DNA from: Candidatus Polarisedimenticola svalbardensis
GTDB taxonomy: Bacteria; Acidobacteriota; Polarisedimenticolia; Polarisedimenticolales; Polarisedimenticolaceae
DNA: 32,578 bases
NCBI GenBank assembly: GCA_014764515.1
Contig: JACXWD010000038.1
Span: 1-32,578 of the forward strand
Reading direction: 5' to 3'
The number at the start of each line of letters is the position of its first letter. The stretch's first letter is position 1. Shown here in pieces: positions 8,996-32,578 of the stretch. The notes under the pieces are model-generated. The model was given only the letters and a program-made list of their open reading frames with translations. It made no database searches and had not been told where the DNA came from. The position numbers were made by a program, and so were the translations under genes.

Positions 8996-9386
8996 AGTCA
9001 TTCCCTCCCCGGGTCAGTGTCTCCTGGTCCTTGCGCAACACTTCCAGGGTGGTGTCGAACGGCTTGGGCGCATTTTTGATGCGATGGCGGATGATCAGTC
9101 CGAGACCCGCTGCCATCAGCATGTAGATCAGCATGAGCACTGTCGCCAGGATGGCGCGCTGATCCCAGAACAGGACCAGAAGCAGGACGTTCAGGCAGAG
9201 GAACGACAGGAACAGTGAGAACAGAGCCGCCATGGCCAGCACGAGGTGCGAAATGAGGGAGTTTTTCTCTTCAGTCAGTTCCAGGGCGAACAGCTCGCCG
9301 CGGTAGCGCACACCTTCAGTCAGGCTTCCCAGCACCTGCCGCAGGGCGCCGCCGATACCTCGTGTCGATCCTGTTTCCTGTGCCAT
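8985..9386 (-). CDS. YqjE/phage-holin-family (DUF1469-like) membrane protein
   Basis: The protein is 133 residues. An amphipathic N-terminal helix (LRQVLGSLTEGVRYRGELFALELTEE) leads into two strongly hydrophobic segments, about 45-73 and 80-101. The charged C-terminal tail ends with the 17-base overlap to the next gene. This layout matches the putative Actinobacterial holin-X / YqjE family, whose members sit in the inner membrane of many Gram-negative bacteria and whose function is poorly known. A holin role is not implied, because no phage genes are nearby. It starts 22 bases after the sirtuin stop, so it is probably co-transcribed with it. Confidence 0.75.
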   Translation of the reverse strand: MAQETGSTRGIGGALRQVLGSLTEGVRYRGELFALELTEEKNSLISHLVLAMAALFSLFLSFLCLNVLLLVLFWDQRAILATVLMLIYMLMAAGLGLIIRHRIKNAPKPFDTTLEVLRKDQETLTRGGNDYGD

Positions 9387-9408
9387 ACCGATCCGAGTTT
9401 ACACCTGT

Positions 9409-10140
9409 TCAGGCCATGGACGACACGAAACCGGGAAGGATTTCACCGGCCGGACCGTCGTAGTGCTCATCAACCATCGGCGTCAGGGGGGTTCGTTCAG
9501 GATTGACCTCCACCACGAACGCTCCCGCCGCCCTGGCGGCCTGGGGCATGGCCGCCGCCGGGTAGACCAGGCTCGAAGTGCCGACCACCAGCATCAGCCG
9601 GCAGTTCCGGACAGCGTTTTGAGCTTTACCCATCGATTCCCTGGGAAGCTGCTCTCCGAACCAGACCACACCGGGCCGGAGCATGCCGCCGCAACCGCAC
9701 CCGGGAGGCAGCGGATGGAGCGCCGGCCGGAGATCCTCCCTCTCCGCTCCGCAAACTGTGCAACGCAGGGTCCACAGACTGCCGTGAAGGCGAATGATCT
9801 CAGCTGTTCCGGCCCGCTCATGAAGACCATCCACATTCTGGGTCACTACCGTGAGGTTGGACAGCTTCTTTTCCAGATCGACAATGGCGGTATGGGCCGG
9901 GTTCGGTTTCGCCGACGCCGCCTGGGTCCGGCGCCAGTCATAGAACCGCCAGACCGTCATCGGTTCGGCGTCGAACGCCTCCGGCGTCGCCAGGGACATC
10001 GGATCCCGGCCTTCCCAATGTCCACCCGGCCCCCGGAAAGTGGCCAGTCCGGATTCGGCGGAAACGCCGGCGCCGGTGAGCACTACCGTCGGCGGATCGG
10101 AGGACAGCAGGCGGAGCAGTTCTCCGGTCGGTTCCTGCAT
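9409..10140 (-). CDS. Sir2-family NAD-dependent protein deacylase
   Basis: This 243-residue sirtuin removes acyl groups from lysines using NAD. Motifs in order: GAGVSAESGLATFRG (23-37), FYDWRR (66-71), TQNVDGLH (100-107), catalytic H119 in LHGSLW, zinc cysteines C127/C130 and C148/C150, LRPGVVWFGE (154-163), VGTSS (186-190) and VEVNPE. Y67 and R70 form the Y-x-x-R pattern that in CobB and SIRT5 marks desuccinylase/demalonylase-capable (class III) enzymes, so activity on acidic acyl groups is likely. The second zinc pair is C-x-C rather than the usual C-x-x-C. The ATG at 10140 shares its first base with the upstream stop, so the gene is coupled to the STAS-like gene. A longer in-frame start at 10176 is rejected for that reason. 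Confidence 0.92.
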   Translation of the reverse strand: MQEPTGELLRLLSSDPPTVVLTGAGVSAESGLATFRGPGGHWEGRDPMSLATPEAFDAEPMTVWRFYDWRRTQAASAKPNPAHTAIVDLEKKLSNLTVVTQNVDGLHERAGTAEIIRLHGSLWTLRCTVCGAEREDLRPALHPLPPGCGCGGMLRPGVVWFGEQLPRESMGKAQNAVRNCRLMLVVGTSSLVYPAAAMPQAARAAGAFVVEVNPERTPLTPMVDEHYDGPAGEILPGFVSSMA

Positions 10141-10532
10141 CAGGCGTTCCTGGCGTGCTCGTGGTTGTCGAGCCATTCCACCGCCCGGACCGGGTCGTCA
10201 AAAACGGCGGTGCGCTCTCTTCCCGTGGGGTAGGTCCGTTCTCTCGGCTCTCCCAGGGCGAAGTACAGCTCCGGTTTCAGCAGGAACGCGATGACCCCGC
10301 GACCGTTGCGCAACTCGTCCCGGCGGATCATTTCAACCAGCGGCCAGATATCTTCCCGGCCGGTCAACCCCTCAGCCTCCCTGAGATCCCAGAGGCTGTT
10401 GCAGTCCGGAAGGTAGTCGGGATCCTCTACCAGGCTTGCGATGGTCCGCCGGACCCGGTTGGCGGTCAGCGCGCCGGTGACGGTGTGTGTCGGGACACGG
10501 GAGTTCGGGTCGATGGAAGTTCGGATCAGCAT
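10140..10532 (-). CDS. STAS-like / SpoIIAA-type small protein
   Basis: The protein is 130 residues, starting at the ATG at 10532 with GGAG 7 bases upstream. Its shape matches the 'TheSTAS'/SpoIIAA-like group: an N-terminal beta segment (HTVTGALTANRVRRTI), a central SLWDLREAEGLTG motif where these proteins place their conserved Asp, and a C-terminal RTAVFDDPVRAVEWLDNH helix. These are cytoplasmic proteins of unclear function. It is the first gene of the unit STAS-like, sirtuin, YqjE-like, small protein. The family call is by pattern only. Confidence 0.6.
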   Translation of the reverse strand: MLIRTSIDPNSRVPTHTVTGALTANRVRRTIASLVEDPDYLPDCNSLWDLREAEGLTGREDIWPLVEMIRRDELRNGRGVIAFLLKPELYFALGEPRERTYPTGRERTAVFDDPVRAVEWLDNHEHARNA

Positions 10533-10563
10533 CGATCTACTCCAGGCGGTTCGCGTATCATGC

Positions 10564-10569
10564 ATTGTA
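10564..10569 (-). promoter_or_regulatory. Probable -10 box of the STAS-sirtuin operon
   Basis: TACAAT reads toward the STAS-like gene, 31 bases before its ATG. It sits in the 64-base gap shared with the divergent aat gene. No convincing -35 hexamer is visible. Confidence 0.4.
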
Positions 10570-10596
10570 CTCCAAACTGTGACGCGAGGTTACCTG

Positions 10597-11298
10597 GTGC
10601 CGGTCTATCGCCTGTCCGACAGCATCGCCTTTCCACCGCCTCGAGAGGCTGACGAAAGCGGACTGCTGGCTGTTGGCGGGGACCTGCGGCCTGAACGGTT
10701 GATCCTGGCCTACAGTTCCGGAATCTTCCCCTGGCCCCACGAAGGTTATCCCCTGCTGTGGTTCTCCCCGGACCCGCGGATGGTGCTGGAGCCGAAGCGG
10801 CTGCCGGAGCGCAAACGGCTGGAGCGGTCCATCCGGTCCCGCCGGTTCCGGTTCACCCTGGACCAGGCGTTCCGGCAGGTCATGGAACAGTGCGCCGTCA
10901 CACCTTCCCGGGCCGAGGAGGGCACCTGGATCAACGGTCCGATGGTCGAGGCGTACTGCACGCTGCACCGGCTGGGACACGCCCACTCCATCGAGTGCCG
11001 GCAGGACGACCGGCTTGTCGGTGGTCTGTACGGAATCGTAGTGGGGTCGATCTTCATCGGCGAGTCGATGTTCTCGGATGTCACCGACGCTTCCAAAGCC
11101 TGCTTCTACCGGCTGGTGCAACAACTGGCCCGCTGGGGCTTCACCCTGATGGACGGCCAGGTCGAAACCGACCACCTGGCCTTCCTGGGGATGAAGCCGC
11201 TGGATCGGGACCACTATCTGGATATGCTGCACCAGTCATTGGATTCCGGCTTTCAGCACCAGGACTGGGTGCTGGATCCAGACCTGGCCGGCGGTTGA
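10597..11298 (+). CDS. aat: Leucyl/phenylalanyl-tRNA-protein transferase
   Basis: This 233-residue enzyme moves Leu or Phe from charged tRNA to the N-terminus of proteins that begin with Arg or Lys, creating a degradation signal. I place the start at GTG 10597, with GAGG 7 bases upstream; the protein then begins VPVYRLSDSIAFPPP, as family members do. Family motifs: GLLAVGGDL (22-30), GIFPW (42-46), WFSPDPR (55-61), TWI (110-112), GGLYG (142-146), FIGESMFS (153-160) and LMDGQ (184-188). Length is typical. Its pathway partners ClpS and ClpA are encoded 3.3 kb downstream on the same strand, separated by a beta-helix protein gene. Confidence 0.93.
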   Translation: MPVYRLSDSIAFPPPREADESGLLAVGGDLRPERLILAYSSGIFPWPHEGYPLLWFSPDPRMVLEPKRLPERKRLERSIRSRRFRFTLDQAFRQVMEQCAVTPSRAEEGTWINGPMVEAYCTLHRLGHAHSIECRQDDRLVGGLYGIVVGSIFIGESMFSDVTDASKACFYRLVQQLARWGFTLMDGQVETDHLAFLGMKPLDRDHYLDMLHQSLDSGFQHQDWVLDPDLAGG

Positions 11299-11333
11299 GT
11301 CGAAATCCTGGACCTAATGTAGATAGTTGGTTG

Positions 11334-11344
11334 TATATTTTAAT
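11334..11344 (+). promoter_or_regulatory. AT-rich promoter-like patch before the beta-helix gene
   Basis: TATATT (11334-11339) and TTTAAT (11339-11344) lie in an AT-rich patch of the 115-base gap after aat, about 70 bases before the next ATG. No good -35 element is found at standard spacing, so this is weak evidence that the beta-helix gene is transcribed separately. Confidence 0.25.
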
Positions 11345-11413
11345 GTACCAGGCATGTTACGGACGGACCGAACCGCCGATCAGAGACACCCGCCAAGCAA
11401 GGGAGACCGGATC

Positions 11414-14400
11414 ATGACCTTCCGCAAACGGGTCGGTGAAGTTGTCACGTTCAGCCTGGTTGTTCTTGTGACGCTGTCTTTTTCTACTGTCGTGTGCGCT
11501 ACGACAACAGGGACCGTGCAATTCGACGAGACCTGGGTCGGTGAGGTAGTACTCACCGGCGACGTCACCGTACCGGATGGTGTAACCCTGACCATCGCGG
11601 CAGGAACAATCGTCAAGGCGGCCCCCCTGTCCGACGACCAGGCCAGTGGGCTGGATACTGCGCGAATCGAACTGATAATCGAGGGTACCCTGAACCTGGA
11701 AGGCACACCCTCACTTCCCGTGACGTTCACCTCGAATCAGCGGCGGCCGCAGGTCCCTACCGCAGGGGACTGGTACGGCATCCGCATGACCAACACCGCG
11801 GATAGCACCATCACAATCCATGATTTGATCATCGAGGCCGGTGTTGCCGGCTTCTCGGCGAATGCCGGATCCCATCAGGACATTGTGAATTGTACCGTGC
11901 GGGACATGACCTCCAAGGGAATCTACATGGAGTTCGGGGAAGAACCTAGAGACGGCGCCGACCCAGGCATTTTGATTTCGGGCAATACACTCGAGGGAAC
12001 AGGCCCATCGTTCCCGGGCATCTATCTCAAGCTCTCCAGCAACGCCGACCCCAGTTGGGATGATGCTACCCACCAGATTGTCGGAAATGTTATCCGGGAT
12101 GGTGCATACCAGGGCATCGACGTTTCCGTCCCCGACTTCGAACGATTGGAAATTGTTGACAACACCGTCTCCAACACCTTCACAGGGATCTATGTGTTCA
12201 GCAACTACAACACATCGTCCAACAATCAGCTTACGATTCGCGACAACTCCATAACTGGCGCCCCTTACATAGCCATCAACATTGGCGGCGGCCGGTCGGT
12301 TCTGGTTGAAAACAATACCGTCACAGGAGGTACGGATGGTATTGAGTTGACCAACGCACTGGCCCCGCGAATTGTTGACAACACTCTCGACGGGGGAACC
12401 GATTTCGGTATCACCATTCTAGGCCTTGGAAGCCTTACAGAAACGCATGTCCACAGGAACCTGATCAGCGGATACGGAAGCGGGATACGGTTTAGGGGCC
12501 GCACCTCCCTGGTGGCCTTGTACAACACAATCACAGGCACTGAAAGATCGATCGAGCTGACCGGTGGCACCCCAATGGGGGTGCCGCGGTTCCACTGGAA
12601 TAACATCCAGGACAGCACTATTTACGCCGCCTACAACGACAGCTCGGCGTCCGTTGACATGAAACACAATTACTGGGGCACAACCAATGTCGAGATGCAG
12701 GCAGAAGGGTACCCCTCGGACATCACAACTATCTTTGACATCGAAGATTGGGCCGGAAAAGGCCGGGTCGATTATCGGGGAGTGGAGAACCTACTTATCG
12801 ATACCGCCATCACCCTGGAGAGCCGTTTCGTCTGGCCATTTAACGGCGACTTGCTCAGCCGGCAGACCATTTCTCTTGAAGGGACAGCCTATGCCGAAGC
12901 CGGCGTGCAATTGGTGGAACTGTCCACCGATGGCGGCTCGAACTGGCTACCTGCCTCAGGTACCGATTTCTGGAACTTCCAGTTCACCCCCACACTGGAC
13001 GGCCTGCATCAGTTTCTGAGCCGCGTTACCGACAATGACGGCATTGTGGAGGCCACCCCCGATGTCATCACAGTGGACTTCGACTCGACACTGCCGACAA
13101 CCGAGGGGACACTGCCAGATAACGAAACATGGTCCGGGACCATCATTCTCACTGGTGATGTGCTCATCCCGCAGGGAAGGACCCTGACTATAGATCCAGG
13201 TACCACAATCCTGATGCAGCCGACCGCGGACAATACACATAGCGGAATTGACACATCTCGAATCGAATTGATCGTGGAAGGCGACCTGATCGCGGAGGGG
13301 AGTGGACCAGGATCAATCCAGATGACTTCCGGCTCAGTCACACCAGGAAAAGGGCACTGGTACGGAATTCGCTATAGCGGTGAGAACCGGGCACTAACCG
13401 ACTTGAGAGGCCTTACCGTGGAGTGGGGAGCCTGGGGACTTTCCGGAACCAGCATCCCAAGCCTTGACCAGGTCGTGGTCCGGGGAATGCGAACCTACGG
13501 TATCCATGCGGACCAGGCACCGTTGGGAGCCGGAACCTGGACGTTCAGGGATCTGGAGATCAATGACGTGGACCGGGACGGAGCCAGACTCACCACAGGC
13601 TCGGAGGATACCAACATCCTCATGGAAAGGGTCACGATCAGGAATACTACCTATGACTCGATGGACTTGTTCATGGACACAACCGAGACGGTAACACTTC
13701 GGGATTCCACATTCGAATCATTAACGAACGAGGATGCCGTATTTATCCAGCAACCTGGGAGCGTCACCCTGGAACGTGTTTCCATCCACAATGATACAAG
13801 CTCGGGCTACGGTGTTCGGGTATATGGAACTATGGGAACCGGCGTCATCAACATCAGGGATAGTGCAATTACTGGAGGCAGCTGGCCCGTAGATATCTAC
13901 GGAGCCTACACTGTGTCGATCAGGGACAACTGGATTTCAGGAGGAAGCTCAGGCGGCGTGAACCTCAGAGGAAGCGGATTCGGTTACTTCACAGCCGCCC
14001 TGACAGGCAACCACATCAGCGATAGCCCATCGGACGGATTGTTCATTCATGAGTATGTCGACGTAACGATGCATCAAAACAACCTGACCAATACAGGCGG
14101 GTATGCCCTGAACAATGTCTCGACGAACCCTGTGGACGCCGTCGACAATTACTGGGGGGTGACTGCCACAGCCGAGATGGACGCCGAGGGCTGCGTTTCC
14201 AATATCGAGACCATATTCGATTTCCATGATGATCCAGCCAAAGGCCTGGTGACCTACTGCGGGTATGCAACAGAGCCGTTCGGTGACACGTCGGCTCTCT
14301 ATTTCCACAAGAGCGGCGGCCAGTACGAACTCCACTGGAACGCCAAAGGCAGCCTGACCTACGACCTCATCCGTGGGGATGTGGCGAACCTGGCCCTTGG

Positions 14401-14596
14401 TGTGGGAATCATCGACCTGGGTGCTGTTACTTGCGAAGAGCAGGCCAACGGCACCGGCATCATCGTCGATTCCAGCACCCCCCCTGCATTGGGCCAGACC
14501 TGGTTCTACCTCCTGCGGGATCATTCCACACCGGGGGACTACGGGCAGAGCACCGGTGGCCTGGAACGGATTCCCTCCAGCGGCGATTGCCCCTGA
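11414..14596 (+). CDS. Secreted right-handed beta-helix protein with internal duplication
   Basis: The protein has 1060 residues. The ATG at 11414 has GGGAG upstream and opens a signal peptide (about 1-30, core FSLVVLVTLSFSTVV). Two homologous halves follow. Each begins with a TW(V/S)G..(V/I)LTGDV..P.G.TLTI entry (about residues 38 and 570), goes on to a WYGIR segment, runs through many short beta-helix rungs rich in N, D, G and V, and closes with NYWG, an AEG/C-S-I-TIFDF block and a short tail. NYWG is common in NosD-like beta-helix proteins. An Ig-like linker (about 475-565, VQLVELSTDGGSNW) joins the halves. The C-terminus (about 960-1060) has YDLIRGD, LGQTWFYLLRD and a G-YG-S-GGLER ending, a form I associate with terminal domains of large secreted proteins in related bacteria. 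No catalytic residues are evident; it may bind surface polysaccharide. Codon choice seems less GC-biased than in its neighbours. Confidence 0.85.
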   Translation: MTFRKRVGEVVTFSLVVLVTLSFSTVVCATTTGTVQFDETWVGEVVLTGDVTVPDGVTLTIAAGTIVKAAPLSDDQASGLDTARIELIIEGTLNLEGTPSLPVTFTSNQRRPQVPTAGDWYGIRMTNTADSTITIHDLIIEAGVAGFSANAGSHQDIVNCTVRDMTSKGIYMEFGEEPRDGADPGILISGNTLEGTGPSFPGIYLKLSSNADPSWDDATHQIVGNVIRDGAYQGIDVSVPDFERLEIVDNTVSNTFTGIYVFSNYNTSSNNQLTIRDNSITGAPYIAINIGGGRSVLVENNTVTGGTDGIELTNALAPRIVDNTLDGGTDFGITILGLGSLTETHVHRNLISGYGSGIRFRGRTSLVALYNTITGTERSIELTGGTPMGVPRFHWNNIQDSTIYAAYNDSSASVDMKHNYWGTTNVEMQAEGYPSDITTIFDIEDWAGKGRVDYRGVENLLIDTAITLESRFVWPFNGDLLSRQTISLEGTAYAEAGVQLVELSTDGGSNWLPASGTDFWNFQFTPTLDGLHQFLSRVTDNDGIVEATPDVITVDFDSTLPTTEGTLPDNETWSGTIILTGDVLIPQGRTLTIDPGTTILMQPTADNTHSGIDTSRIELIVEGDLIAEGSGPGSIQMTSGSVTPGKGHWYGIRYSGENRALTDLRGLTVEWGAWGLSGTSIPSLDQVVVRGMRTYGIHADQAPLGAGTWTFRDLEINDVDRDGARLTTGSEDTNILMERVTIRNTTYDSMDLFMDTTETVTLRDSTFESLTNEDAVFIQQPGSVTLERVSIHNDTSSGYGVRVYGTMGTGVINIRDSAITGGSWPVDIYGAYTVSIRDNWISGGSSGGVNLRGSGFGYFTAALTGNHISDSPSDGLFIHEYVDVTMHQNNLTNTGGYALNNVSTNPVDAVDNYWGVTATAEMDAEGCVSNIETIFDFHDDPAKGLVTYCGYATEPFGDTSALYFHKSGGQYELHWNAKGSLTYDLIRGDVANLALGVGIIDLGAVTCEEQANGTGIIVDSSTPPALGQTWFYLLRDHSTPGDYGQSTGGLERIPSSGDCP
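11524..14275 (+). repeat. Two homologous halves of the beta-helix gene
   Basis: Half 1 spans about 11524-12790 and half 2 about 13120-14275. They share the order TW-G..LTGDV, LTI..GT, ARIELI(I/V)EG or SRIELIVEG, WYGIR, and NYWG..AEM(D/Q)AEG. The copies have diverged at DNA level, so the duplication is old. Confidence 0.75.
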
Positions 14597-14602
14597 TTTT
14601 TT
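14578..14602 (+). terminator. Rho-independent terminator at the end of the beta-helix gene
   Basis: Bases 14578-14584 pair with 14589-14595 (six pairs and one C-C mismatch) around a GATT loop. A run of six T (14597-14602) follows. The stop codon lies within the 3' arm. This would separate transcription of the beta-helix gene from clpS. Confidence 0.5.
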
Positions 14603-14631
14603 GGGAATAGGCGAAAAGGTGCCTGACCCCT

Positions 14632-14637
14632 TAAAAT
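14632..14637 (+). promoter_or_regulatory. Candidate -10 box of clpS-clpA
   Basis: TAAAAT ends 9 bases before the clpS ATG at 14647. No ribosome-binding site precedes that ATG, so the mRNA may have almost no leader. The -10 is preceded by AAAAGGTGCCTGACCCC, an imperfect palindrome (14614-14630). Confidence 0.35.
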
Positions 14638-14646
14638 AGCCCCGGC

Positions 14647-14961
14647 ATGAGTTCAGACAAACCCGAACGGGACGAAAAGACGATCACCCGGGAGAAGGAT
14701 CGCGTCAAGCGGCCCCGGCGGTGGAAGGTCGTGATGCACAACGACGACTACACCACCATGGAATTCGTCCTGGATGTGCTGGTGCGGCACTTCAACAAAA
14801 CCAGTACCGAGGCGACCCACATCATGCTGCAGGTACACTACAAGGGGATCGGCACTGCCGGTGTGTACACCCGGGACCTGGCTGAAAGCAAGGTTGCCGC
14901 CGTTCTCAAGGATGCAGAGGAACGCGGACAGCCGCTGAAGCTCACTACGGAGCCGGAATGA
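14647..14961 (+). CDS. clpS: ATP-dependent Clp protease adaptor ClpS
   Basis: This 104-residue adaptor recognises N-terminal Leu, Phe, Tyr or Trp and delivers the protein to ClpA. After a charged, flexible N-terminal extension of about 25 residues comes the ClpS core with WKVVMHNDDYTTMEFV. N32, D33, D34, T36, M38 and H64 correspond to the ligand-pocket residues of the E. coli protein (N34, D35, D36, T38, M40, H66). Length matches the family. The stop overlaps the clpA ATG by 4 bases (ATGA), so the two are translationally coupled. There is no clear Shine-Dalgarno sequence at its own start. Confidence 0.95.
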   Translation: MSSDKPERDEKTITREKDRVKRPRRWKVVMHNDDYTTMEFVLDVLVRHFNKTSTEATHIMLQVHYKGIGTAGVYTRDLAESKVAAVLKDAEERGQPLKLTTEPE

Positions 14962-17183
14962 AACTATCCACCGATCTTCAGATCGCCATCTCCGTCGCAA
15001 TGACCGAAGCGGCGGGGCGCGGGCACGAGTTTGCCGGGCTGGAGCACATGATGGTGGCCCTGCTGCTGGATGAAAAGACCAGCCGGGTCCTGCGTCACGC
15101 CGGCGCCGATACCGACGTCCTCAAAGAAGGCCTCATCGGGTTCCTGGACGAGGAAGTGGAGGTTCTTCCGGTAGACAAACAGGGTGACCCGGAGTTAAGC
15201 CGGGGAATTCAGAGCGTCATGACACGAGCCCTGGCCCACACCGAAGGTGCAGGCCGGCAGGAGATGGAAGGCTACGACATCCTGGTTGCGATGTTCGACG
15301 AGCCGGACTGCTTCGCCGTCCACTTCCTGGAACAGGCCGGGGTCACCCGGCTGGACATCGTGAACTACCTGGCACACGGCATCTCCCAAATCGACCCTGC
15401 CGGAGTCCCTGCCGGCGCGCCGCTGGATGACGACGAGGACACCGCCGCAGCCGATCCCCTGGACAGCTTCACCCGGAACCTCACTGCCCTGGCCCGTGAG
15501 GGGAAAATCGATCCACTCATCGGGAGGGAGCGGGAGATCGACCGCGCGATCCATATCCTCCAGCGCAGGCGAAAAAACAACCCGGTCCTGGTCGGCGATC
15601 CTGGAGTCGGCAAAACCGCCCTGGTGGAAGGGCTGGCCTGGCTCATCGCCCACGACAACGTTCCGGACCCGCTGAAAGGGGTGGCCATCCATTCCCTGGA
15701 CATGGGCGCCCTCCTGGCAGGGACACGGTACCGTGGCGACTTCGAAAACCGCATGAAGGGAGTCCTGCACTCCCTGGAATCCAAGGCCCACTCGATCCTC
15801 TTCATCGACGAGATCCACACGCTGGTCGGCGCCGGCGCCACCGGTTCGGGCACTACCGACGCCTCCAGCCTGCTGAAGCCGTCCCTGGAGGCCGGCGCCC
15901 CCCGGTTCATCGGCGCCACGACGTGGGAAGACTTCCGGCAGTACTTTGAACGGGACCGGGCCCTGGCCCGACGCTTCCAGAAGGTGGAAATCAAGGAACC
16001 GTCGGTGGAAGACACCGTCAAGATCCTGCAGGGGTTGAAATCCCGCTACGAGGACCACCACGGCATCCGGTACACCAAGGCAGCCCTCACCGCCGCTGCC
16101 GAACTGGCCGGACGGCATCTGCGGGACCGCAAGCTGCCGGACAAGGCGATCGACCTCATGGACGAGGCCGGCGCCACCGCCGCCCTGGCCGGCCGTAAGC
16201 AGGTCGGTGCCCTGGATGTGGAACGGGTCCTGGCCGGAATGGCCCAGATCCCGCTCCAGACCGTCAAGGGTAGTGACCGTGATCGACTGAAAGGTCTCGA
16301 GGACCAGGTCCGCGGGGTTGTTTTCGGGCAGGATCACGCCATCGAAAAACTGATCACCGCAATCAAGATGGCCCGTGCGGGACTGGGCCGACCCGACACC
16401 CCGGTCGGTTCGTTCCTGCTCACCGGACCCACAGGTGTGGGAAAGACCGAAGTCGCCAAACAGCTTGCGGTCGCACTGGGGATCGCGTTCCTTCGCTTCG
16501 ACATGAGCGAGTACATGGAGCGACACTCTGTCTCCCGATTGGTTGGCGCACCTCCCGGATACGTCGGGTACGACCGGGGCGGCCTTCTCACCGAGGCGGT
16601 CAACCAATCGCCTCATGCCGTGCTGCTCCTGGACGAGATAGAGAAAGCCCATCCCGATGTTTTTAACATCCTCCTGCAGATCATGGATCACGGCACCCTC
16701 ACCGACACCAACGGCAAGGAAACCGATTTCCGACAGGTCGTTCTGCTCATGACCTCCAACGTTGGCGCCCGGGAACTGGCCGGCAGGCAGGTCGGCTTTG
16801 ATGGCGGCACGACCCGGGAAGGGGCCGATCAGCAGGCGTACGAGAAGATGTTCAACCCTGAGTTCCGCAACCGCCTGGACGGCCGGATCTCGTTCAAGCC
16901 GCTCTCCACCGGCGTCATGAAGAAGATCGTGGACAAATTCCTTGCCGAGCTCAGGGACCAGCTGAAGGATCGCAAGGTCGAATTGACCATCACCGACGAG
17001 GCGCGGGAGCTCCTGGCCCGCCTCGGTTACGATCCGGCCTTCGGCGCACGTTTCCTGGCCCGGCTGATCGACGAGAAGGTCAAGAAGCCGCTCACCGATC
17101 AGGTATTGTTCGGAAAGCTGGAAAATGGCGGAACGGCGCGGATACTTGCCGACGGGGATGCGATCCTGGTGGACTACAGCTAG
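14958..17183 (+). CDS. clpA: ATP-dependent Clp protease ATP-binding subunit ClpA
   Basis: This 741-residue Hsp100 unfoldase feeds substrates to ClpP. An N-terminal Clp_N domain (about 1-140) binds ClpS. The first AAA+ module has Walker A GDPGVGKT (213-220) and Walker B LFIDE (281-285). The second has Walker A GPTGVGKT (490-497) and Walker B LLLDE (556-560). Between them there is only a short linker and no ClpB-type coiled-coil middle domain, which supports ClpA rather than ClpB or ClpC. The tripeptide VGF (612-614) is in the position of the ClpP-docking loop (IGL in E. coli). Overlap with clpS shows an operon. clpP itself is not in the window. Confidence 0.95.
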   Translation: MKLSTDLQIAISVAMTEAAGRGHEFAGLEHMMVALLLDEKTSRVLRHAGADTDVLKEGLIGFLDEEVEVLPVDKQGDPELSRGIQSVMTRALAHTEGAGRQEMEGYDILVAMFDEPDCFAVHFLEQAGVTRLDIVNYLAHGISQIDPAGVPAGAPLDDDEDTAAADPLDSFTRNLTALAREGKIDPLIGREREIDRAIHILQRRRKNNPVLVGDPGVGKTALVEGLAWLIAHDNVPDPLKGVAIHSLDMGALLAGTRYRGDFENRMKGVLHSLESKAHSILFIDEIHTLVGAGATGSGTTDASSLLKPSLEAGAPRFIGATTWEDFRQYFERDRALARRFQKVEIKEPSVEDTVKILQGLKSRYEDHHGIRYTKAALTAAAELAGRHLRDRKLPDKAIDLMDEAGATAALAGRKQVGALDVERVLAGMAQIPLQTVKGSDRDRLKGLEDQVRGVVFGQDHAIEKLITAIKMARAGLGRPDTPVGSFLLTGPTGVGKTEVAKQLAVALGIAFLRFDMSEYMERHSVSRLVGAPPGYVGYDRGGLLTEAVNQSPHAVLLLDEIEKAHPDVFNILLQIMDHGTLTDTNGKETDFRQVVLLMTSNVGARELAGRQVGFDGGTTREGADQQAYEKMFNPEFRNRLDGRISFKPLSTGVMKKIVDKFLAELRDQLKDRKVELTITDEARELLARLGYDPAFGARFLARLIDEKVKKPLTDQVLFGKLENGGTARILADGDAILVDYS

Positions 17184-17186
17184 ACT

Positions 17187-17203
17187 GGCTGATTCAACCA
17201 GCC
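17187..17203 (+). other. Small hairpin between clpA and the FKBP gene
   Basis: GGCTG (17187-17191) and CAGCC (17199-17203) form a 5-base stem just after the clpA stop. No T-run follows, so it is not a standard terminator. It may be an mRNA-stabilising or attenuating structure, or chance. Confidence 0.2.
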
Positions 17204-17225
17204 CTAATCTCTGGAAAGGACCGTC

Positions 17226-17966
17226 ATGAAGTCAGTCATTCTTTGTATCTCACTGTGTCTTGCGCTCCTCACCGGTTGCGCGGCATCCGCCAATGAACAG
17301 CCTCCCGTCCTGGATACCGACGACCAGAAGGCGCTCTACGCCGTCGGGTTCGCTCTCTCCCAGAACCTGACCACCCTGGATCTGACCCCGGAAGAACTGA
17401 CCCTGGTCCAGCGCGGGCTGAGTGACGGAATCCAGAAAGTTGACGAGCCGTTCGACATCCAGGCGTTCATGCCCCAGCTGGAGCAGATTTTTGACGGTCG
17501 CGTACGAGCGAAGATCGAGCGCGAGAAAGCAGCCGGTCTTGCGTTGGTGGAAGCGGCCAAGGCGGAAACCGGCGCGAAGGTCCTGCCCTCCGGCGCGGTC
17601 TATCTTGAAACCGCCGCCGGCACCGGAGCCCAGCCGGCCATCACCGAACGGGTCAAACTGCATTACCACGGCACCTTCCACAACGGCGACGTGTTCGACA
17701 GTTCGGTGGACGCCGGTGAGCCGGCAGAGTTCACCCTGAATCAGGTCGTCCCCTGCTTCGGCGAAGGCGTCTCCAGCATGAAGGTCGGCGGCAAGGCGAA
17801 ACTGACCTGCCCTCCGGAGGCTGCTTACGGTGAATCCGGCCGTCCCGGCATCCTCCCCGGCACCACCCTGATCTTCGAGGTGGAGCTGCTGGACATCCTG
17901 GCTGCACCGGCGGCTCCGGCTGTGCCTTCCGGCAACTCCGACATGGGCGAGAGCCCGGCGGAGTAA
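17226..17966 (+). CDS. FKBP-type peptidyl-prolyl isomerase lipoprotein (FkpA/Mip-like)
   Basis: The protein is 246 residues. The lipobox LLTGC places the lipidated cysteine at C18. An N-terminal helical dimerisation-type domain (about 30-115, including YAVGFALSQNL and QRGLSDGI) precedes a C-terminal FKBP domain (about 122-228). The FKBP domain has VKLHYHGTFHNGDVFDSS, GEGVSSMKVGGKAKLTCPPEAAYGE and PGTTLIFEVELLDI, all near-consensus active-site elements. The tail is Ala/Pro-rich. It helps fold exported proteins in the periplasm as a membrane-anchored chaperone. GGAAAGGA lies 5 bases before the ATG. It starts 42 bases after clpA, so co-transcription is possible. Confidence 0.92.
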   Translation: MKSVILCISLCLALLTGCAASANEQPPVLDTDDQKALYAVGFALSQNLTTLDLTPEELTLVQRGLSDGIQKVDEPFDIQAFMPQLEQIFDGRVRAKIEREKAAGLALVEAAKAETGAKVLPSGAVYLETAAGTGAQPAITERVKLHYHGTFHNGDVFDSSVDAGEPAEFTLNQVVPCFGEGVSSMKVGGKAKLTCPPEAAYGESGRPGILPGTTLIFEVELLDILAAPAAPAVPSGNSDMGESPAE

Positions 17967-17981
17967 AGTCTCTCCCCTGCG

Positions 17982-19088
17982 CTAGACGTACCGGCCGTCC
18001 CGCATCAGCGGGGCGGCCACACCGTCTTCTCCAACCAGATCCACCGACAATACGCTGACCTGGGGCTGCACTTCCGGGATGTAGACCCGGTCGATGTGGA
18101 CCACCTTGTCCGGTGAGCTGAAATCATCCGGGCCAACCTGTCCGCCAAAATGGTCACTGCGGCCGAAGGCGATGTGCAGTCCGAGTTTCTCGTCAAGAAG
18201 CAGGGAGCCGACCGGCTTGATGCCGTAACCGGCCAGGATGCCCAGGCCGAGTTCGGCCACGTTGCGATAGGCCGGTTCGTTATCAACCTCGGCCCGTTCC
18301 ACCGCAGCCAGAGGGCCATCCCCCTCCACAGCCGTGATCCGGTTCTCCTCGATGCGGTAGACCATCAATTCGCCGTCCAGATCCAGCGGAAGCTCACCTT
18401 TGGTCCGGCTGGGATCTCCGGCTCTCTCCCCTTCATACGGCACGATGTAGGTCTCACCTGAGGGAAGGTTCCCGGCGATCCCGGGCTTGTTCAGGAGCCC
18501 GCCACTGGCGGTGCCTGTTCGATACCTCAGGTCCAGGGTCAGCCGGAACTCCCTGCCGTCGGCCGCCATCAGGATTTCCGCCGATGAAACCCGGTCGACC
18601 TTTTCCCTCAATTCGTGGCAACGCCTGTCGATCTCCTCCCAGTCCAGTCGCAGGGCCGGGATCATCGCCGCCCCGAACCCGGGCATGGTCGCCGCCCGGA
18701 ATTGATGCTTCTTCGCCAGCAGTTTCAACGGCGCCGTAGCCGACAGCTCGGTAGGGGCGATGACGATCTGGTGGGAGGACAGGATTTCATCGAACGTGGT
18801 TTCCCGGCCGCTGTGATGGATGGTGCACCGCTCCGGAAGCTCGGCGTTGTTCCTGCGGACGTTGTCGTACACCACCAGCCCGGCAGCCTCGAGTCCAAGA
18901 TCGGCAGCCCCTTCGTTCAGCTTGGCGGCCCAGTCGGCGGCCATTTCCCGTCGTGCGCGCCAATCCGGGTTGTCGGGCAACTCCCGGTCGGGCAGATCGC
19001 AGATCACCGCCAGGTTGCGATCTCCAGGCTGGGAGCCGAACACCCGGCGGACCAAGGTGATCAGTTCGTCTTTCGTTAAATCATGCAT
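17982..19088 (-). CDS. M29-like (aminopeptidase T family) metallopeptidase
   Basis: The protein has 368 residues, starting at the ATG at 19088, with AGGAGG 6 bases upstream; a GTG six bases earlier touches the ribosome-binding site and is unlikely. It resembles the M29 / leucyl aminopeptidase (aminopeptidase T) group. Visible candidate metal ligands are the Glu in NLPSGETY, the Glu in VAELGLG, histidines in KLGLHIAFGRSDHFGG, and the H-x-D of KVVHIDRVY (about H331/D333). No signal peptide, so cytoplasmic. It probably trims N-terminal residues from peptides, which would complement the nearby N-degron genes, though the link is only positional. The N-terminal half is more divergent than the C-terminal half. 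Confidence 0.75.
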   Translation of the reverse strand: MHDLTKDELITLVRRVFGSQPGDRNLAVICDLPDRELPDNPDWRARREMAADWAAKLNEGAADLGLEAAGLVVYDNVRRNNAELPERCTIHHSGRETTFDEILSSHQIVIAPTELSATAPLKLLAKKHQFRAATMPGFGAAMIPALRLDWEEIDRRCHELREKVDRVSSAEILMAADGREFRLTLDLRYRTGTASGGLLNKPGIAGNLPSGETYIVPYEGERAGDPSRTKGELPLDLDGELMVYRIEENRITAVEGDGPLAAVERAEVDNEPAYRNVAELGLGILAGYGIKPVGSLLLDEKLGLHIAFGRSDHFGGQVGPDDFSSPDKVVHIDRVYIPEVQPQVSVLSVDLVGEDGVAAPLMRDGRYV

Positions 19089-26238: not shown

Positions 26239-29200
26239 ATGAATCGACTTTCAAATTGCCTGTTGGCGGTAATCTGTCTCTATATGATGGCCGGCGGAGT
26301 TGCTGTGGCCCAACAGGAAACCATCTACCGGTTCGCTCCGGGGCAAGATGGAAACTGGCAGGCGCCGAATCGATTCCACCGTTTCTCGGTGCAGATTGGC
26401 GCCGACCGGATCTCGCTGCACGATCCCTCCGGATTGGATGGAAGCCCGGTCCTGACCCTGGATTTCGTCGCCGTGTCCGCAGGCTCCCACAGGCAGGTGC
26501 CGGGAATCCCTCGGGTCGCCGTTTCCGGATCCCGGGTCGAACGTTTCTTCGACGGGTTCTCCGACTGGTACATCAACGACCGCAAAGGACTGAAACAGGG
26601 GTTCACGATCGGAGCAAGGCCGACTGGAGACAGCACCGGCCTCCTGACCCTGCACTTCGCTATCGGCGGATCGCTTTCCGCATTTCCCGCCCCCGACGGA
26701 TCGTCCGTTGTTTTCCGTAATTCCACCGGTCGGGCGATCTATCACTACGGCGAGCTTGTGGTGTTCGATGCCACAGGACAGGTCCTGCCGTCCTACTTCG
26801 ACTTCGAAAACGGCCGATTGGCGATCCGGGTCGACGATGCCGAGGCGGTCTATCCCATTACAGTGGACCCGCTGCTCACTTCCAGTTCCTGGTCCCTGGA
26901 CGGTAACAAGAGCGGCGGTTCTTTCGGAGAAGCCGTTGCCACGGCTGGGGATGTCAATGGGGACGGGTTCAGTGACCTGCTGGTGGGAGCGCCGGGATGG
27001 GCAGACGCTCAGACGGGTGAGGGGCGCGTCTATCTCTACCTTGGAAGCAGCGCAGGACTGTCTTCTACTCCGGCATGGTCCGTTGACGCCGATCAGGCAG
27101 GAGCCGCACTGGGTACAGCGGTCTCCACGGCAGGCGACGTCAACGGCGACGGTTATGACGATTTTCTGGTTTCTGCCCCTGGCTATGATGGCGCCTTTGC
27201 CGATGAAGGACGAGTGTTTCTGTACCTGGGTTCGGCCACTGGGCCCTCGGTTACCGCGGACTGGTCTGCCGATGGCGGTCAGAGCGGTTCCGATTTCGGC
27301 GCAGCCCTTTCCTTCGCTGGTGATGTGGATGGAGACGGCTACGATGACGTTTTAATCGGTGCACCTGGCCATGACGGCACGTGGGTCGATGAGGGCCGTG
27401 CTCACCTGTTCCCGGGATCGGCTACCGGTCCTGCGGCCTCCGCATCGTGGACGGCGGACGGCGGCCAGACCGGTGCCGCCTGGGGCGCCACGGTGGCCGG
27501 CGCCGGTGATCTGAACGGGGATGGGTTCGCTGACCTGGCAGTCGGTTCACCATTGTTCGATGCGCCTGCAGTGGACGCAGGACAGATCGCCGTGTTCCTC
27601 GGTTCTCTCGGTGGCCCGGCCGCAGTGGCGGACTGGACCGTGAACGGTGATCAGGCAGGCGGCCGACTGGGCGACGGACTGGCTTCTATCGGTGATTCCG
27701 ATGGTGACGGCTACGCCGATCTGGCTGCAGCTGCTCCTTTGTACGACACTCCGGTGGTGAATGCCGGCAGGGTCTACCTGTTTTCCGGCGGTTCGGCGGT
27801 TCCGTTCGGTCCAGCCTCCTGGACGGCGGACGGCAGCCAGACTGCCGAGCAGTTCGGCTCCTCTCTGGCGGCTGCAGGCGATACCAACGGCGACGGCTAT
27901 GCCGACCTCGCAATCGGCGCCCCCGCCTACGACGCTGTCGGCACCGGTGAAGGCAGGGCGGTTCTCTACGAAGGATCGGGTGCGGGCCTCCAGGCTCTCC
28001 CGGCCTGGAATTCGATCGGAGACCAGGACGGCGCCGCTTTTGGAACCGCAGTAACGTCCGCCGGCGACGTCAACGGCGACGGCTTCGGTGACCTGGCGGT
28101 CGGCGCTCCTTTGTACGACGTAGTCACAGGCAATAATGAAGGCAACGCGGTCGTCTACCTGGGTACTGCCGGTCTTGTGGCCACCTCTCCGGACTGGAAC
28201 GTTCAGCCCCACAAGACCAACAACGAGTTCGCTATCGAGGTCGACATGGCCGGCGATGTCAACGGGGACGGTTATACCGACCTCATCATCGGTTCTCCCT
28301 GGTTCAACACCGGCCTCACTGAAATGGGCCGGGTTCTGATCTACCACGGTTCGCCGAACGGACCACCAGCCACCGAATCCTGGGTCGTCTGGGGAACACA
28401 GGAGGAGCAAGACTTCGGACATTCGGTATCTCATGCAGGAGACGTCAACGGCGATGGGTACGACGATGTCATTATCGGATCTCCGTTCTACGACAACCCG
28501 GAGTTGGACGAAGGCCGGGCCTTTCTGTTCCTGGGCTCTCCCACCGGGGTCGAGTTGACCCCTTCATGGTCCTACGACAGCAACCAGGCAGGAGGCGAAT
28601 TCGGTTTTTCGGTGAGTAATGCAGGAGACGTCAACGGAGACGGCTTCGCCGATGTGCTGGTTGGCGCTCCAGGCTTCGACAACGGCGTATCCAACTCGGG
28701 GCGGGCGTACCTGTTTCTTGGTTCCCCATCCGGACTGTCGACGGTCCCCAACTGGTCCTACCAGGCGACGGCAGATACCGAACAGTTCGGCTACTCGGTG
28801 TCTCTCGCAGGAGACGTCAACGCCGACGGGTATGGCGACATCATCATTGGTGCACGACGCGCTCCCGGCAACGGCAGGGCGTATGTGTTCCACGGCTCTC
28901 CGACCGGCCCGTCCCTGGTTCCGGATTGGAGCAAGGGCGACATAGGCGGTCAGTTCGGCGTACATGTGGATACCGCCGGTGATGTCAACGGGGACAGCTT
29001 CAGCGATGTCGTGGTAGGCGCCTACCAATACAACAACGAAGGCAAAGCGTTCGTCTTCCACGGCTCTGCCGCAGGCCTGTCCACCACGGAAGCCTGGTCG
29101 GCAACAGGCGGTCAGGCGGGATCACAGTTCGGCGTAGCCGTGTCGGCAGCAGGCGACATCAACCATGACGGCTTCAGCGACATCGTCATCGGCTCGAAAA

Positions 29201-32200
29201 AATACGACAATCCCGAAATCGACGAAGGCAGGGCCTACGTCTACCTCGGATCCGCCACCGGGCTGGCAGCCGGACCGGCATGGACTCTTGAAATCGACAG
29301 TGCCGGTGCGAACCTTGGCAACTCTGTGTCCGAGGCCGGCGACGTCAACGGGGACGGCTTCGATGATCTGCTGGTAGCTGCGGACCAGTGGACCAATTTG
29401 GCAATCAACGAAGGCCGGGCGGACCTGTTCTACGGGGGCGCGAGCAATGGCTTGTCCCGTCTCCCACGGCAGGCACGAAGTGATGACAGCGCACCGATCT
29501 CCCTGGGCGGCCGCTCCGACTCCCAGTCGGGATTCCGGCTCAAGGCGCTGGGCAGGACCCCGGCAGGTCGCGATCGTATCCGCTTCGTCTGGGAAATTGA
29601 GCCCATCGGGACCCCGTTTGACGGGCTCGGCCTCTCCGAATCACTCACGATGGAAACGGCCGCCCCCACGGCGAGCGGCAGCTTCGTCCCGTTCAATGAA
29701 CCGATCTCGGGTCTCAACCCGGTCACCGCCTACCACTGGCGTGTTCGCATCGTCTCCGACAACCCGCTCTTCCCCCGCTCACCGTGGCTGACAATGCCGG
29801 GCAACACGATCGCCGAACTGGAACTCCGTACCGACGGATGCACCGACAATGACGGTGATGGCTACGGCGCCACCGGCCATGCCAGCTGCCCTCAGGGCGC
29901 GACACCGGATTGCGATGACACCAATGCGGCGGTCTACCCCGGCGCGACAGAAGTCTGTGACGGCGTCAACAACGATTGCAGCGATCCGGGTTGGCCGGAC
30001 ACTACCGGCGGGATCGACGAGAACCTGGACGGCGACAACTACTCCACTTGCCAGGGAGACTGCGAGGACACCGACCCGACCATCAACCCGGGCGCAACTG
30101 AAATCACCTGTGACAGCATCGACCAGAACTGCAACGGAATCGCAGACGACACACCGGACACCGACGGCGACACTTTCACGGTCTGCACCGATTGCGATGA
30201 CGCCAACGCTGCCGTCTATCCGGGTGCAGCCGAGGTTTGTGACGGAGTCAACAACGATTGTGATGATCCTTCCTGGCCGGGTACGACAGGCGGAATCGAA
30301 GAGGATCTGGATACTGACAACTATTCGGTTTGCCAGGGCGATTGCGTCGATACGAACCCGGCAATAAACCCGGGAGCTGCAGAGATATTCTGTGACACTA
30401 TCGATCAGAACTGCAACGGTCTGGCCGATGACTCGCCCGACGTCGACGGCGACACCTACAGCGTCTGCGACGGTGACTGCAACGATACCAATCCTGCAAT
30501 CAATCCGGGTGCAACGGAAATAACCTGCGACCTGGAGGACCAGAACTGCAATGGTGATATCGACGAAGACCCGGATGCGGATATAGACGGCTACGGCCGG
30601 TGCTCGGGTGACTGCGATGACGCCGACCCCGCCATCAACCCGGGAGCTGCAGAGATTTTCTGCGACAGCATCGACCAGAACTGCAACGGGTTCGAGGACG
30701 ACGCTCCTCTCACAGACACCGACGGTGATACGTATACCTACTGTCTCGACTGCGATGACACCGACCCGGCCATCAACCCGGGAGCCGCCGAGATCACCTG
30801 CAACGGCATCGACGAGAACTGCAACGGCCCTGCCGACGACACCAGGGATCTGGATGACGACACCTATTCGGTCTGTGTGGACTGCGACGACACAGACCCG
30901 GCTATCAACCCGGGAGCCGCCGAAATCACCTGCAACGGCATCGACGATAATTGCAATGGAGCCGACGACGAAGCTCCGGATGTTGACGGGGATACGTATG
31001 GCCTGTGCAGCGGTGACTGTGACGACTCCGATCCGGCCATCAATCCGGGCGCGGCGGAACTTACATGCAACGGTATTGACGAGAACTGCAATGGCACCGC
31101 CGATGACGCGCCAGACGTTGATGGAGATACGTACAGCATCTGCACCGGGGACTGCAACGACACCGACCCGGCGGTCCACCCGGGTATGGTCGAAATTACA
31201 TGTAATGCCGTCGACGACAACTGCAACGGCCTGACGGACGACACACCGGACGGAGACGGCGACACCTATTCCATCTGTGTCGATTGCGATGATACCAACC
31301 CTCTGATCAATCCTGCCGGCAGCGAGATCACCTGCAACGGCATCGACGAGAATTGCAACGGCGCCCTGGATGACACTCCAGATGGGGACGGTGACACGTA
31401 TTCCGAATGTGACGACTGCAACGACGCCGACCCGGCCATCAATCCGGGTGCCACCGAGATCACCTGCAACGGCATCGATGAAAACTGCAACGGCGCGGCG
31501 GACGACACGCCAAACGTCGACGGCGACGCGTACACCATCTGTGACGGCGACTGCGACGACACCAACCCTGCAATCAACCCCGGCGTTACCGAGATCACCT
31601 GCAACGGTATTGACGAGAACTGCTCAGGACCGGCTGATGACGAACCGGACGCGGATGGGGACACCTACTCCACATGTGTCGACTGTGATGACGCCAACCC
31701 GGCCATCAATCCCGGCGCCACGGAAATCGCCTGCAACAGCACTGACGAAAATTGTAACGGTGCACTGGATGACGAACCGGACACTGATGGAGATACCTAC
31801 TCCGATTGCATCGACTGCGACATCACCGATCCGGCTATCAACCCGGGCGCCACCGAGATCACATGCAACGGTATCGATGAAAACTGCACCGGACCGGTGG
31901 ACGATGAACCAGACGTAGACGGCGACACATTCTCCGTATGTAACGATTGCGACGATACGGACCCGCTAATCAATCCGGGCGCTACAGAAATCACCTGCAA
32001 CGCCATCGACGAGAACTGCAACGGTGCTCTCGACGATGAACCGGATGTGGACGGCGACACGTTCTCGGCCTGCGTCGACTGCGACGATACCGATCCGGCT
32101 ATCAACCCGGCTGCTACAGAGATAACCTGCAACGCCATCGACGAGAACTGCAACGGCGCTGCAGACGATACTCCCGATGTGGACGGCGACACTTTCACCG

Positions 32201-32578
32201 TCTGTGCCGGCGACTGCGACGACACGGACCCGGCCATCAACCCAGGTGCTGCCGAAATCACCTGCAACGCCATCGACGAGAACTGCAATGGTGCGTTGGA
32301 TGACGAACCGGACACCGACGCCGACACCTACTCTGATTGCATCGACTGCGACATTAACGACCCGGCCATCAACCCGGGTGCTACCGAAATCACCTGCAAC
32401 GCCATCGATGAAAACTGTAATGGTGCTCTTGATGACGAGCCGGACACCGACGCCGACACCTACTCTGATTGCATCGACTGCGACATTAACGACCCGGCTA
32501 TCAACCCGGGCGCCACAGAAATCACATGCAACGGCATCGACGAGAACTGCAACGGACCTGCCGACGACACTCCCGATA
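26239..32578 (+). CDS. Giant secreted FG-GAP/MopE-repeat protein (3' end beyond window)
   Basis: The frame is open from the ATG at 26239 to the right edge, giving more than 2113 residues. A signal peptide covers about 1-24 (core LLAVICLYMMAGGVAVA). Residues 25-215 form a beta-rich domain ending YPITVDPLL, a phrase often found just before such repeats. Residues 218-1067 hold fourteen FG-GAP repeats with Ca-binding loops of the form DxNGDGxxD. Residues about 1090-1200 form a fibronectin-like linker (AYHWRVRI, PWLTMPG). From 1201 onward there are at least twenty MopE-type repeats of about 44 residues, with DCDDTDPAINPGATEITCNG as the core and usually four cysteines each. The likely role is a calcium-dependent cell-surface or matrix protein; adhesion is inferred from the repeat types. 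The remaining length and any sorting signal are not visible. Confidence 0.88.
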   Translation, partial: MNRLSNCLLAVICLYMMAGGVAVAQQETIYRFAPGQDGNWQAPNRFHRFSVQIGADRISLHDPSGLDGSPVLTLDFVAVSAGSHRQVPGIPRVAVSGSRVERFFDGFSDWYINDRKGLKQGFTIGARPTGDSTGLLTLHFAIGGSLSAFPAPDGSSVVFRNSTGRAIYHYGELVVFDATGQVLPSYFDFENGRLAIRVDDAEAVYPITVDPLLTSSSWSLDGNKSGGSFGEAVATAGDVNGDGFSDLLVGAPGWADAQTGEGRVYLYLGSSAGLSSTPAWSVDADQAGAALGTAVSTAGDVNGDGYDDFLVSAPGYDGAFADEGRVFLYLGSATGPSVTADWSADGGQSGSDFGAALSFAGDVDGDGYDDVLIGAPGHDGTWVDEGRAHLFPGSATGPAASASWTADGGQTGAAWGATVAGAGDLNGDGFADLAVGSPLFDAPAVDAGQIAVFLGSLGGPAAVADWTVNGDQAGGRLGDGLASIGDSDGDGYADLAAAAPLYDTPVVNAGRVYLFSGGSAVPFGPASWTADGSQTAEQFGSSLAAAGDTNGDGYADLAIGAPAYDAVGTGEGRAVLYEGSGAGLQALPAWNSIGDQDGAAFGTAVTSAGDVNGDGFGDLAVGAPLYDVVTGNNEGNAVVYLGTAGLVATSPDWNVQPHKTNNEFAIEVDMAGDVNGDGYTDLIIGSPWFNTGLTEMGRVLIYHGSPNGPPATESWVVWGTQEEQDFGHSVSHAGDVNGDGYDDVIIGSPFYDNPELDEGRAFLFLGSPTGVELTPSWSYDSNQAGGEFGFSVSNAGDVNGDGFADVLVGAPGFDNGVSNSGRAYLFLGSPSGLSTVPNWSYQATADTEQFGYSVSLAGDVNADGYGDIIIGARRAPGNGRAYVFHGSPTGPSLVPDWSKGDIGGQFGVHVDTAGDVNGDSFSDVVVGAYQYNNEGKAFVFHGSAAGLSTTEAWSATGGQAGSQFGVAVSAAGDINHDGFSDIVIGSKKYDNPEIDEGRAYVYLGSATGLAAGPAWTLEIDSAGANLGNSVSEAGDVNGDGFDDLLVAADQWTNLAINEGRADLFYGGASNGLSRLPRQARSDDSAPISLGGRSDSQSGFRLKALGRTPAGRDRIRFVWEIEPIGTPFDGLGLSESLTMETAAPTASGSFVPFNEPISGLNPVTAYHWRVRIVSDNPLFPRSPWLTMPGNTIAELELRTDGCTDNDGDGYGATGHASCPQGATPDCDDTNAAVYPGATEVCDGVNNDCSDPGWPDTTGGIDENLDGDNYSTCQGDCEDTDPTINPGATEITCDSIDQNCNGIADDTPDTDGDTFTVCTDCDDANAAVYPGAAEVCDGVNNDCDDPSWPGTTGGIEEDLDTDNYSVCQGDCVDTNPAINPGAAEIFCDTIDQNCNGLADDSPDVDGDTYSVCDGDCNDTNPAINPGATEITCDLEDQNCNGDIDEDPDADIDGYGRCSGDCDDADPAINPGAAEIFCDSIDQNCNGFEDDAPLTDTDGDTYTYCLDCDDTDPAINPGAAEITCNGIDENCNGPADDTRDLDDDTYSVCVDCDDTDPAINPGAAEITCNGIDDNCNGADDEAPDVDGDTYGLCSGDCDDSDPAINPGAAELTCNGIDENCNGTADDAPDVDGDTYSICTGDCNDTDPAVHPGMVEITCNAVDDNCNGLTDDTPDGDGDTYSICVDCDDTNPLINPAGSEITCNGIDENCNGALDDTPDGDGDTYSECDDCNDADPAINPGATEITCNGIDENCNGAADDTPNVDGDAYTICDGDCDDTNPAINPGVTEITCNGIDENCSGPADDEPDADGDTYSTCVDCDDANPAINPGATEIACNSTDENCNGALDDEPDTDGDTYSDCIDCDITDPAINPGATEITCNGIDENCTGPVDDEPDVDGDTFSVCNDCDDTDPLINPGATEITCNAIDENCNGALDDEPDVDGDTFSACVDCDDTDPAINPAATEITCNAIDENCNGAADDTPDVDGDTFTVCAGDCDDTDPAINPGAAEITCNAIDENCNGALDDEPDTDADTYSDCIDCDINDPAINPGATEITCNAIDENCNGALDDEPDTDADTYSDCIDCDINDPAINPGATEITCNGIDENCNGPADDTPD
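26892..29440 (+). repeat. Fourteen FG-GAP repeats
   Basis: Each unit of about 60 residues has FG..V, then GD(V/I/L)NGDGxxD(L/V)(L/I/V)(V/I)G(A/S)P, then GR(V/A)xx(Y/F)xGS. I count fourteen Ca-loop motifs, from about 26947 to about 29338. Four loops are altered (S-D-G at the fifth, N-A-D-G at the eleventh, N-G-D-S at the twelfth, N-H-D-G at the thirteenth). Fourteen is twice the seven blades of an integrin-type propeller. Confidence 0.85.
29839..32578 (+). repeat. At least twenty MopE-type Cys/Asp-rich repeats
   Basis: The unit is about 129-135 bases. I count twenty cores of the form DC(D/N/E/V)D..P.INPGA.EI before the window ends inside a unit. The first and third copies are longer (NNDC.DP.WP.TTGGI); the rest are regular. 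Copies become more alike toward the right end, where repeats 19 and 20 share 59 identical bases (32308-32366 and 32440-32498). Confidence 0.88.

Follow-up and report, generated by a model that had tools for sequence, protein, structure and literature searches.

A beta-helix gene between aat and clpS in Candidatus Polarisedimenticola svalbardensis: a probable native gene within an N-degron cassette of likely foreign ancestry

The 32,578-nucleotide stretch analysed here (the window) is contig C175 (JACXWD010000038.1) of the 3.69-Mb draft genome of Candidatus Polarisedimenticola svalbardensis (G000, 180 contigs). It carries the bacterial N-degron genes aat, clpS and clpA, with a gene for a secreted beta-helix protein between aat and clpS. 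A first-pass annotation of this DNA gave the order as aat, beta-helix, clpS, clpA, all on the plus strand, which our analysis confirmed, and took the beta-helix gene to be the foreign part, which it did not: the cassette around that gene conflicts with the species tree, while the beta-helix gene is matched by paralogs elsewhere in the genus, and its C-terminal module recurs in every class genome sampled. The account that we consider probable as a whole is a composite one. A cassette of the type carried by UCB3 (an unplaced metagenome-assembled genome, MAG) and by genome G062 would have reached the genus by horizontal exchange, either displacing its earlier N-degron genes or providing it with them, and a native beta-helix surface-protein gene would have come between aat and clpS before two genus members diverged. 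On this account a tight-looking pathway cluster can be a mosaic in which the pathway genes are foreign and the gene that they enclose is native, whereas the composition signal alone would point the other way.

Ancestry of the N-degron genes

Homologs of Aat, ClpS and ClpA were identified above curated cut-offs. The aat gene (10597..11298, plus strand) starts with GTG and encodes a leucyl/phenylalanyl-tRNA-protein transferase of 233 aa (PF03588, 7.5e-66). The N-degron adaptor gene clpS (14647..14961, plus strand; 104 aa; PF02617, 3.3e-31) is single copy in the genome, and its stop is overlapped by clpA (14958..17183, plus strand), which encodes an AAA+ unfoldase of 741 aa recognised by AAA/Clp models. 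The activity predicted from homology is Leu/Phe transfer followed by ClpS-dependent degradation.

The ClpA and ClpS trees (47 rows each) and the Aat tree (116 rows) grouped the window with the same three genomes: G004, a second member of the genus; G062, which belongs to the same class but a different family (f4); and UCB3. The group was recovered at 100/100 for ClpA, at 99/93 for ClpS and at 99/88 for Aat, where the bootstrap had not settled. In the ClpA tree the other rows of family f1 fell in a separate nine-row clade with other genomes of the phylum (100/100), and L108, a named Acidobacteria locus, was placed with f30 genomes of the same phylum (100/99), a grouping that points to Acidobacteriota as the probable phylum of the window. 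The RpoB tree (24 rows) was at odds with this grouping. Both genus members fell in the clade of their order (100/100), G062 fell with family f4, and UCB3, represented by a fragment, lay outside the phylum rows. The approximately unbiased (AU) test rejected the window, G004, G062 and UCB3 as one group on RpoB (p 2.7e-43), a comparison that includes the short, long-branched RpoB piece of UCB3, and it rejected family f1 as a single clade on ClpA (p 1.4e-5; 25 of the 47 rows); the groups in both tests were chosen after the ClpA, ClpS and Aat trees had been seen. Because the trees of the cassette conflict with that of RpoB, which follows family and order, the aat-clpS-clpA cassette is likely a foreign piece. 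It is more likely than the beta-helix gene to be of foreign ancestry, and horizontal exchange of the whole cassette is the simplest reading of these sequences.

In the family search (six genomes, with G004 the sole other genus member), the three other genera represented by G001, G002 and G005 have the order clpS-clpA-aat. The expectation of the first-pass annotation that aat would be followed directly by clpS in sister genomes thus fails for the family. The single-contig genome G003 has neither clpS nor aat; in the order search aat was absent from 5 of 10 genomes (G003 and G006-G009) and clpS from G003, G006 and G007, making the pathway patchy within the family and order. Directly after aat, G002 carries a 169-aa secreted-looking open reading frame (ORF; L022:10495-11004) with a weak likeness to the C-terminal module of the beta-helix protein (E 0.008). 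This ORF prompted us to consider a tandem duplication with reciprocal loss that would turn clpS-clpA-aat into aat-X-clpS-clpA, a route that was dropped because the ClpA, ClpS and Aat trees show another cassette type.

Across a sample of 149 genomes of the phylum, clpS was found in 53, aat in 51 and both in 49. Among these 49, clpS comes first within 10 kb in 15, aat comes first in three (our genome and two of family f30) and the genes are linked on opposite strands in two; they lie more than 10 kb apart on one contig in eight and on different contigs in 21. The earlier statement that aat and clpS often lie together describes 20 of these 49 genomes, which keep them within 10 kb of each other. 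The best 80 named aat loci, among which near relatives of the window may be missing, gave clpSA followed by aat in 15 cases, aat followed by clpSA in three (UCB3, L108 and L125, the last with other genes in between), opposite strands in four and no clpS within the locus in 58, six of them with a clpA fragment.

UCB3 is the closest cassette relative in which the genes are still linked. At its locus (L091) 37 nt separate the aat stop from the clpS ATG (counted by eye), and clpA follows. This supports the proposal, already made from the window alone, that the beta-helix gene was inserted between aat and clpS. A search of the UCB3 genome with the query P0001 returned no match. In G062 aat is on a different contig from clpS, which lies 3' of an ORF for a resistance-nodulation-division (RND)-type transporter (named by eye from its sequence).

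The discordant trees might also be explained if the class ancestor had carried both a clpSA-aat and an aat-clpSA cassette, of which the genera each kept one, with no horizontal transfer. The presence of the window's cassette type in G062, a member of the same class, would fit such a history, as would the patchiness of the pathway in the phylum sample (both genes in 49 of 149 genomes). Yet neither clpS nor aat is duplicated in any genome of the family (6) or phylum (149) searches, and the RpoB fragment of UCB3 falls outside the phylum, so that we regard ancestral paralogy as unlikely.

The beta-helix gene and its C-terminal module

The first description of a 3.2-kb secreted beta-helix gene was borne out. 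The gene (11414..14596, plus strand) encodes 1060 aa, and its N-terminus is hydrophobic and, as judged by eye, resembles a Sec signal peptide. This stretch is followed by a first beta-helix module, a Big_7 immunoglobulin-like (Ig) domain, a second beta-helix module and the C-terminal module. Each beta-helix module opens with a stretch resembling ETW.G...LTGDV..P.G.TLTI..GT and continues into beta-helix repeats. The Beta_helix model PF13229 scored 111.7 bits (3.4e-32) against a gathering score of 25.9, with further matches to the NosD model PF05048 (5.9e-24) and to PF17957 (1.7e-5), and the beta-helix fold is predicted from the beta-helix matches. The protein is most likely exported via Sec and acts at or outside the cell surface in an adhesin- or polysaccharide-binding-like role.

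The same gene lies between the same neighbours in G004, over a contig break. There, contig C141 carries sir2, aat and beta-helix residues 1-354 (65% identity), and C37 carries residues 510-1060 (73-85% identity) followed by clpS, clpA and fkbp; residues 355-509 fall outside both pieces. The 3' junction, including the repeat described below, is nearly identical in the two species, although identity of the protein over the long matches is no more than 65-74%. Since G004 shares both the gene and the 3' junction, the insert is not recent and is older than the divergence of the two species. Of the original idea of a later insertion into a conserved cluster, the analysis supports insertion at this site but not a recent date, the gene being already present in G004. 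The C-terminal module of the G004 copy (L023:1260-1536, G004:C37) carries a deletion plus a frameshift, which may reflect real decay or assembly error.

The shared strand, and an adjacency kept in two species despite this divergence, might suggest a functional operon through which the genus would express the beta-helix protein jointly with Aat and ClpSA, owing to a coupling of envelope or export stress with N-degron proteolysis. The gene is, however, set apart by a 115-nt gap with an AT-rich patch before it and by a repeat and a -10-like box after it, and the three other family genera that have these genes have a different order. The N-degron pathway is cytosolic, in conflict with the signal-peptide-like start; the beta-helix protein would be Sec-exported, surface-acting and outside the pathway. 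A functional link to the pathway is unlikely, and we consider the operon highly improbable.

The content of G+C at third codon positions (GC3) is 0.668 in the beta-helix gene compared to 0.812 in aat, 0.771 in clpS and 0.795 in clpA, and is the lowest among the 17 window genes measured (the next lowest are 0.689 and 0.702). The AT-rich patch reported upstream was also found, at 11299..11350 (plus strand; 34.6% GC), and ranks with the most GC-poor 50-nt windows of the stretch. It contains GTATATT, which is also present upstream of the G004 copy, and is a possible promoter of the beta-helix gene, although a scan for the sigma-70 consensus gave no match in the patch. Low GC3, an AT-rich patch and the adjacency of aat and clpS in UCB3, L108, G045 and G122 are what would be expected if a foreign beta-helix gene had simply been inserted into the lineage's own N-degron cluster, as first proposed. 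The lower GC bias in codon choice is real but the foreign origin drawn from it does not follow, because eight other ORFs of the same genome that carry the C-terminal module range in GC3 from 0.663 to 0.836 (measured from stop to stop, and so with some non-coding DNA from upstream); low GC3 is not diagnostic. One paralog, on C62, has a GC3 of 0.757. Simple insertion of a foreign gene appears even less likely than ancestral paralogy, given the paralogs in the genus, the spread of the C-terminal module across the class and the conflict of the cluster itself with the species tree.

The paralogs are in G000:C62 (L047) and G004:C94 (L046). Both are large, contain several copies of the same module and are cut off at contig ends. 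With these paralogs and the class-wide module, the gene looks native. Phage origin was also considered and rejected: the single PHROG tail-spike match is weak (8.5e-9) and covers the beta-helix part only, and no phage genes were seen among the scanned neighbours.

The C-terminal module (14279..14593, plus strand; about 105 aa), which many large proteins of the class share, was followed with a profile built from nine copies, which matched 28 of the 149 phylum genomes. All 15 class genomes in the sample had it, with from at least 6 to at least 32 matches each (at most 32 candidates were scored), and, with weaker scores, so did 13 of 134 genomes outside the class. In most carriers the module is at the extreme C-terminus: no more than 3 residues separate its end from the stop in 25 of 30 loci (L244-L273) and no more than 20 in all 30, and in the window's own genome the distances were 3, 0, 0, 200, 20, 0, 15 and 9 residues. 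The nine-row alignment contains two invariant cysteines, and no transmembrane anchor is visible. Scans of the module with Pfam and NCBIfam gave no match at E<=1, one sequence search of the PDB gave a best E of 0.23 and the other none, and a single-sequence AlphaFold model was poor (mean predicted local distance difference test score, pLDDT, 44). It is possible, though we think it doubtful, that the module is an undescribed domain, borne in each class genome sampled by large secreted proteins in their dozens, and that it marks them for sorting or anchoring along an export or surface-display route not yet recognised; "undescribed" refers here to the Pfam and NCBIfam scans and a loose literature search and does not mean that nothing is in print. 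The module offers a concrete way into the question of how large surface proteins may be exported or displayed in these uncultured bacteria. Because G062 carries it too, it cannot by itself tell donor from recipient.

The junction with clpS

The element GCGAAAAGGTGCCTGACCCCTT at 14611..14632 (plus strand) had been described as a terminator-like hairpin at the end of the beta-helix gene. No terminator was detected there. A terminator scan found none at the beta-helix 3' end (3 were found in the region, 2.9 being expected), and the 3' junction folded no better than shuffled sequences (z -0.44); an intrinsic terminator with a stable GC stem and a T run was therefore rejected on both grounds. The element is instead a dispersed palindromic repeat, GCGAAAAGG-K-GCCTGACCCC-NT, found at 15 places in the genome with no more than one mismatch to its 16-base core, compared to none for a reversed-pattern control. 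The genome has four Y1 transposase genes, and that on contig C15 (with its flanks, L241:1361-2207, G000:C15) has an exact copy of the repeat on either side, in inverted orientation, at L241:1361-1382 and 2186-2207; no flanking copies were seen at the other three. Mobilisation of the beta-helix gene by the repeat was rejected because the window holds one copy and hence no flanking pair.

The repeat runs into TAAAAT (14632..14637, plus strand), which resembles a -10 box, lies 9 nt ahead of the ATG of clpS and is also present in G004. The counterpart in UCB3 is TATCAT, 8 bases before the clpS ATG. The pattern TANNNT occurs 5-10 nt before the start in 2 of 18 window genes compared to 22 of 905 background ATGs. 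A leaderless promoter for clpSA at TAAAAT is possible. Since the box in the window and TATCAT in UCB3 suggest that clpSA has such a promoter of its own, its expression would probably have been undisturbed by the insertion.

Several points weigh against the composite account of a transferred cassette and a native gene between its parts. Trees like these could also arise without transfer, from deep paralogy and differential loss. UCB3 is taxonomically unplaced and enters the RpoB tree as a short piece with a long branch, and the genomes compared include MAGs. The empty arrangement is known from one genome of the cassette clade, UCB3, while G062 has aat and clpS on different contigs, so that insertion rather than deletion is argued from parsimony. 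The contig break, deletion and frameshift in the G004 gene may mean that it is dispensable in that species or wrongly assembled. The promoter proposal draws on two independent cases, and G062 lacks a -10-like box. We nevertheless favour the composite account.

In the surroundings, an FKBP gene begins 3' of clpA (from 17226, plus strand), and a scan of 9000-18000 for known structured RNAs found none at the gathering score. Near the end of the window an ORF at 26239-32577 (GC3 0.702) runs off its edge; the product carries many FG-GAP repeats in addition to 20 MopE metal-binding motifs.

Relation to known systems

The locus has aat, clpS and clpA as ORFs, with clpS and clpA overlapping, like the N-degron genes of other bacteria. 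It differs in the order aat-X-clpS-clpA, compared to the common clpS-clpA-aat, and in a sequence type shared with UCB3 and G062 and not with its own family. The beta-helix protein, for its part, shares two NosD-like modules and a signal-peptide-like N-terminus with NosD and other right-handed beta-helix secreted proteins (PF13229, PF05048, TIGR04247), but is set apart by its internal duplication, its Big_7 Ig domain and the C-terminal module. By score it is no NosD copper maturation protein, the NCBIfam model TIGR04247 giving 30.1 bits against a cut-off of 300.

C-terminal sorting domains such as the type IX secretion system C-terminal domain (T9SS CTD), PEP-CTERM and MYXO-CTERM are short and conserved, occur in many copies and are mostly found at the extreme C-terminus of large proteins. 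The module resembles them in being short, conserved, C-terminal and present many times per genome. It differs in its length of about 105 aa, its two invariant cysteines and the lack of any match in the Pfam and NCBIfam scans.

The repeat has its closest likeness in the transposase-associated systems known as RAYTs (tyrosine transposases associated with repetitive extragenic palindromic, REP, sequences) and TIRtrons. In these systems (PMC3733652, PMC6006769) REPs or inverted repeats lie on both sides of a gene for a Y1 tyrosine transposase, and PMC3733652 describes such genes with flanking inverted repeats in Acidobacteria among others. The window's repeat differs in lacking the GTAG foot of classical REPs, the copies shown starting instead with GCGAAAAGG, and in numbering only 15 copies at one mismatch or fewer. 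Like theirs, it is dispersed and flanks a Y1 transposase ORF in inverted orientation, an arrangement that fits the REP and inverted-repeat systems described there.

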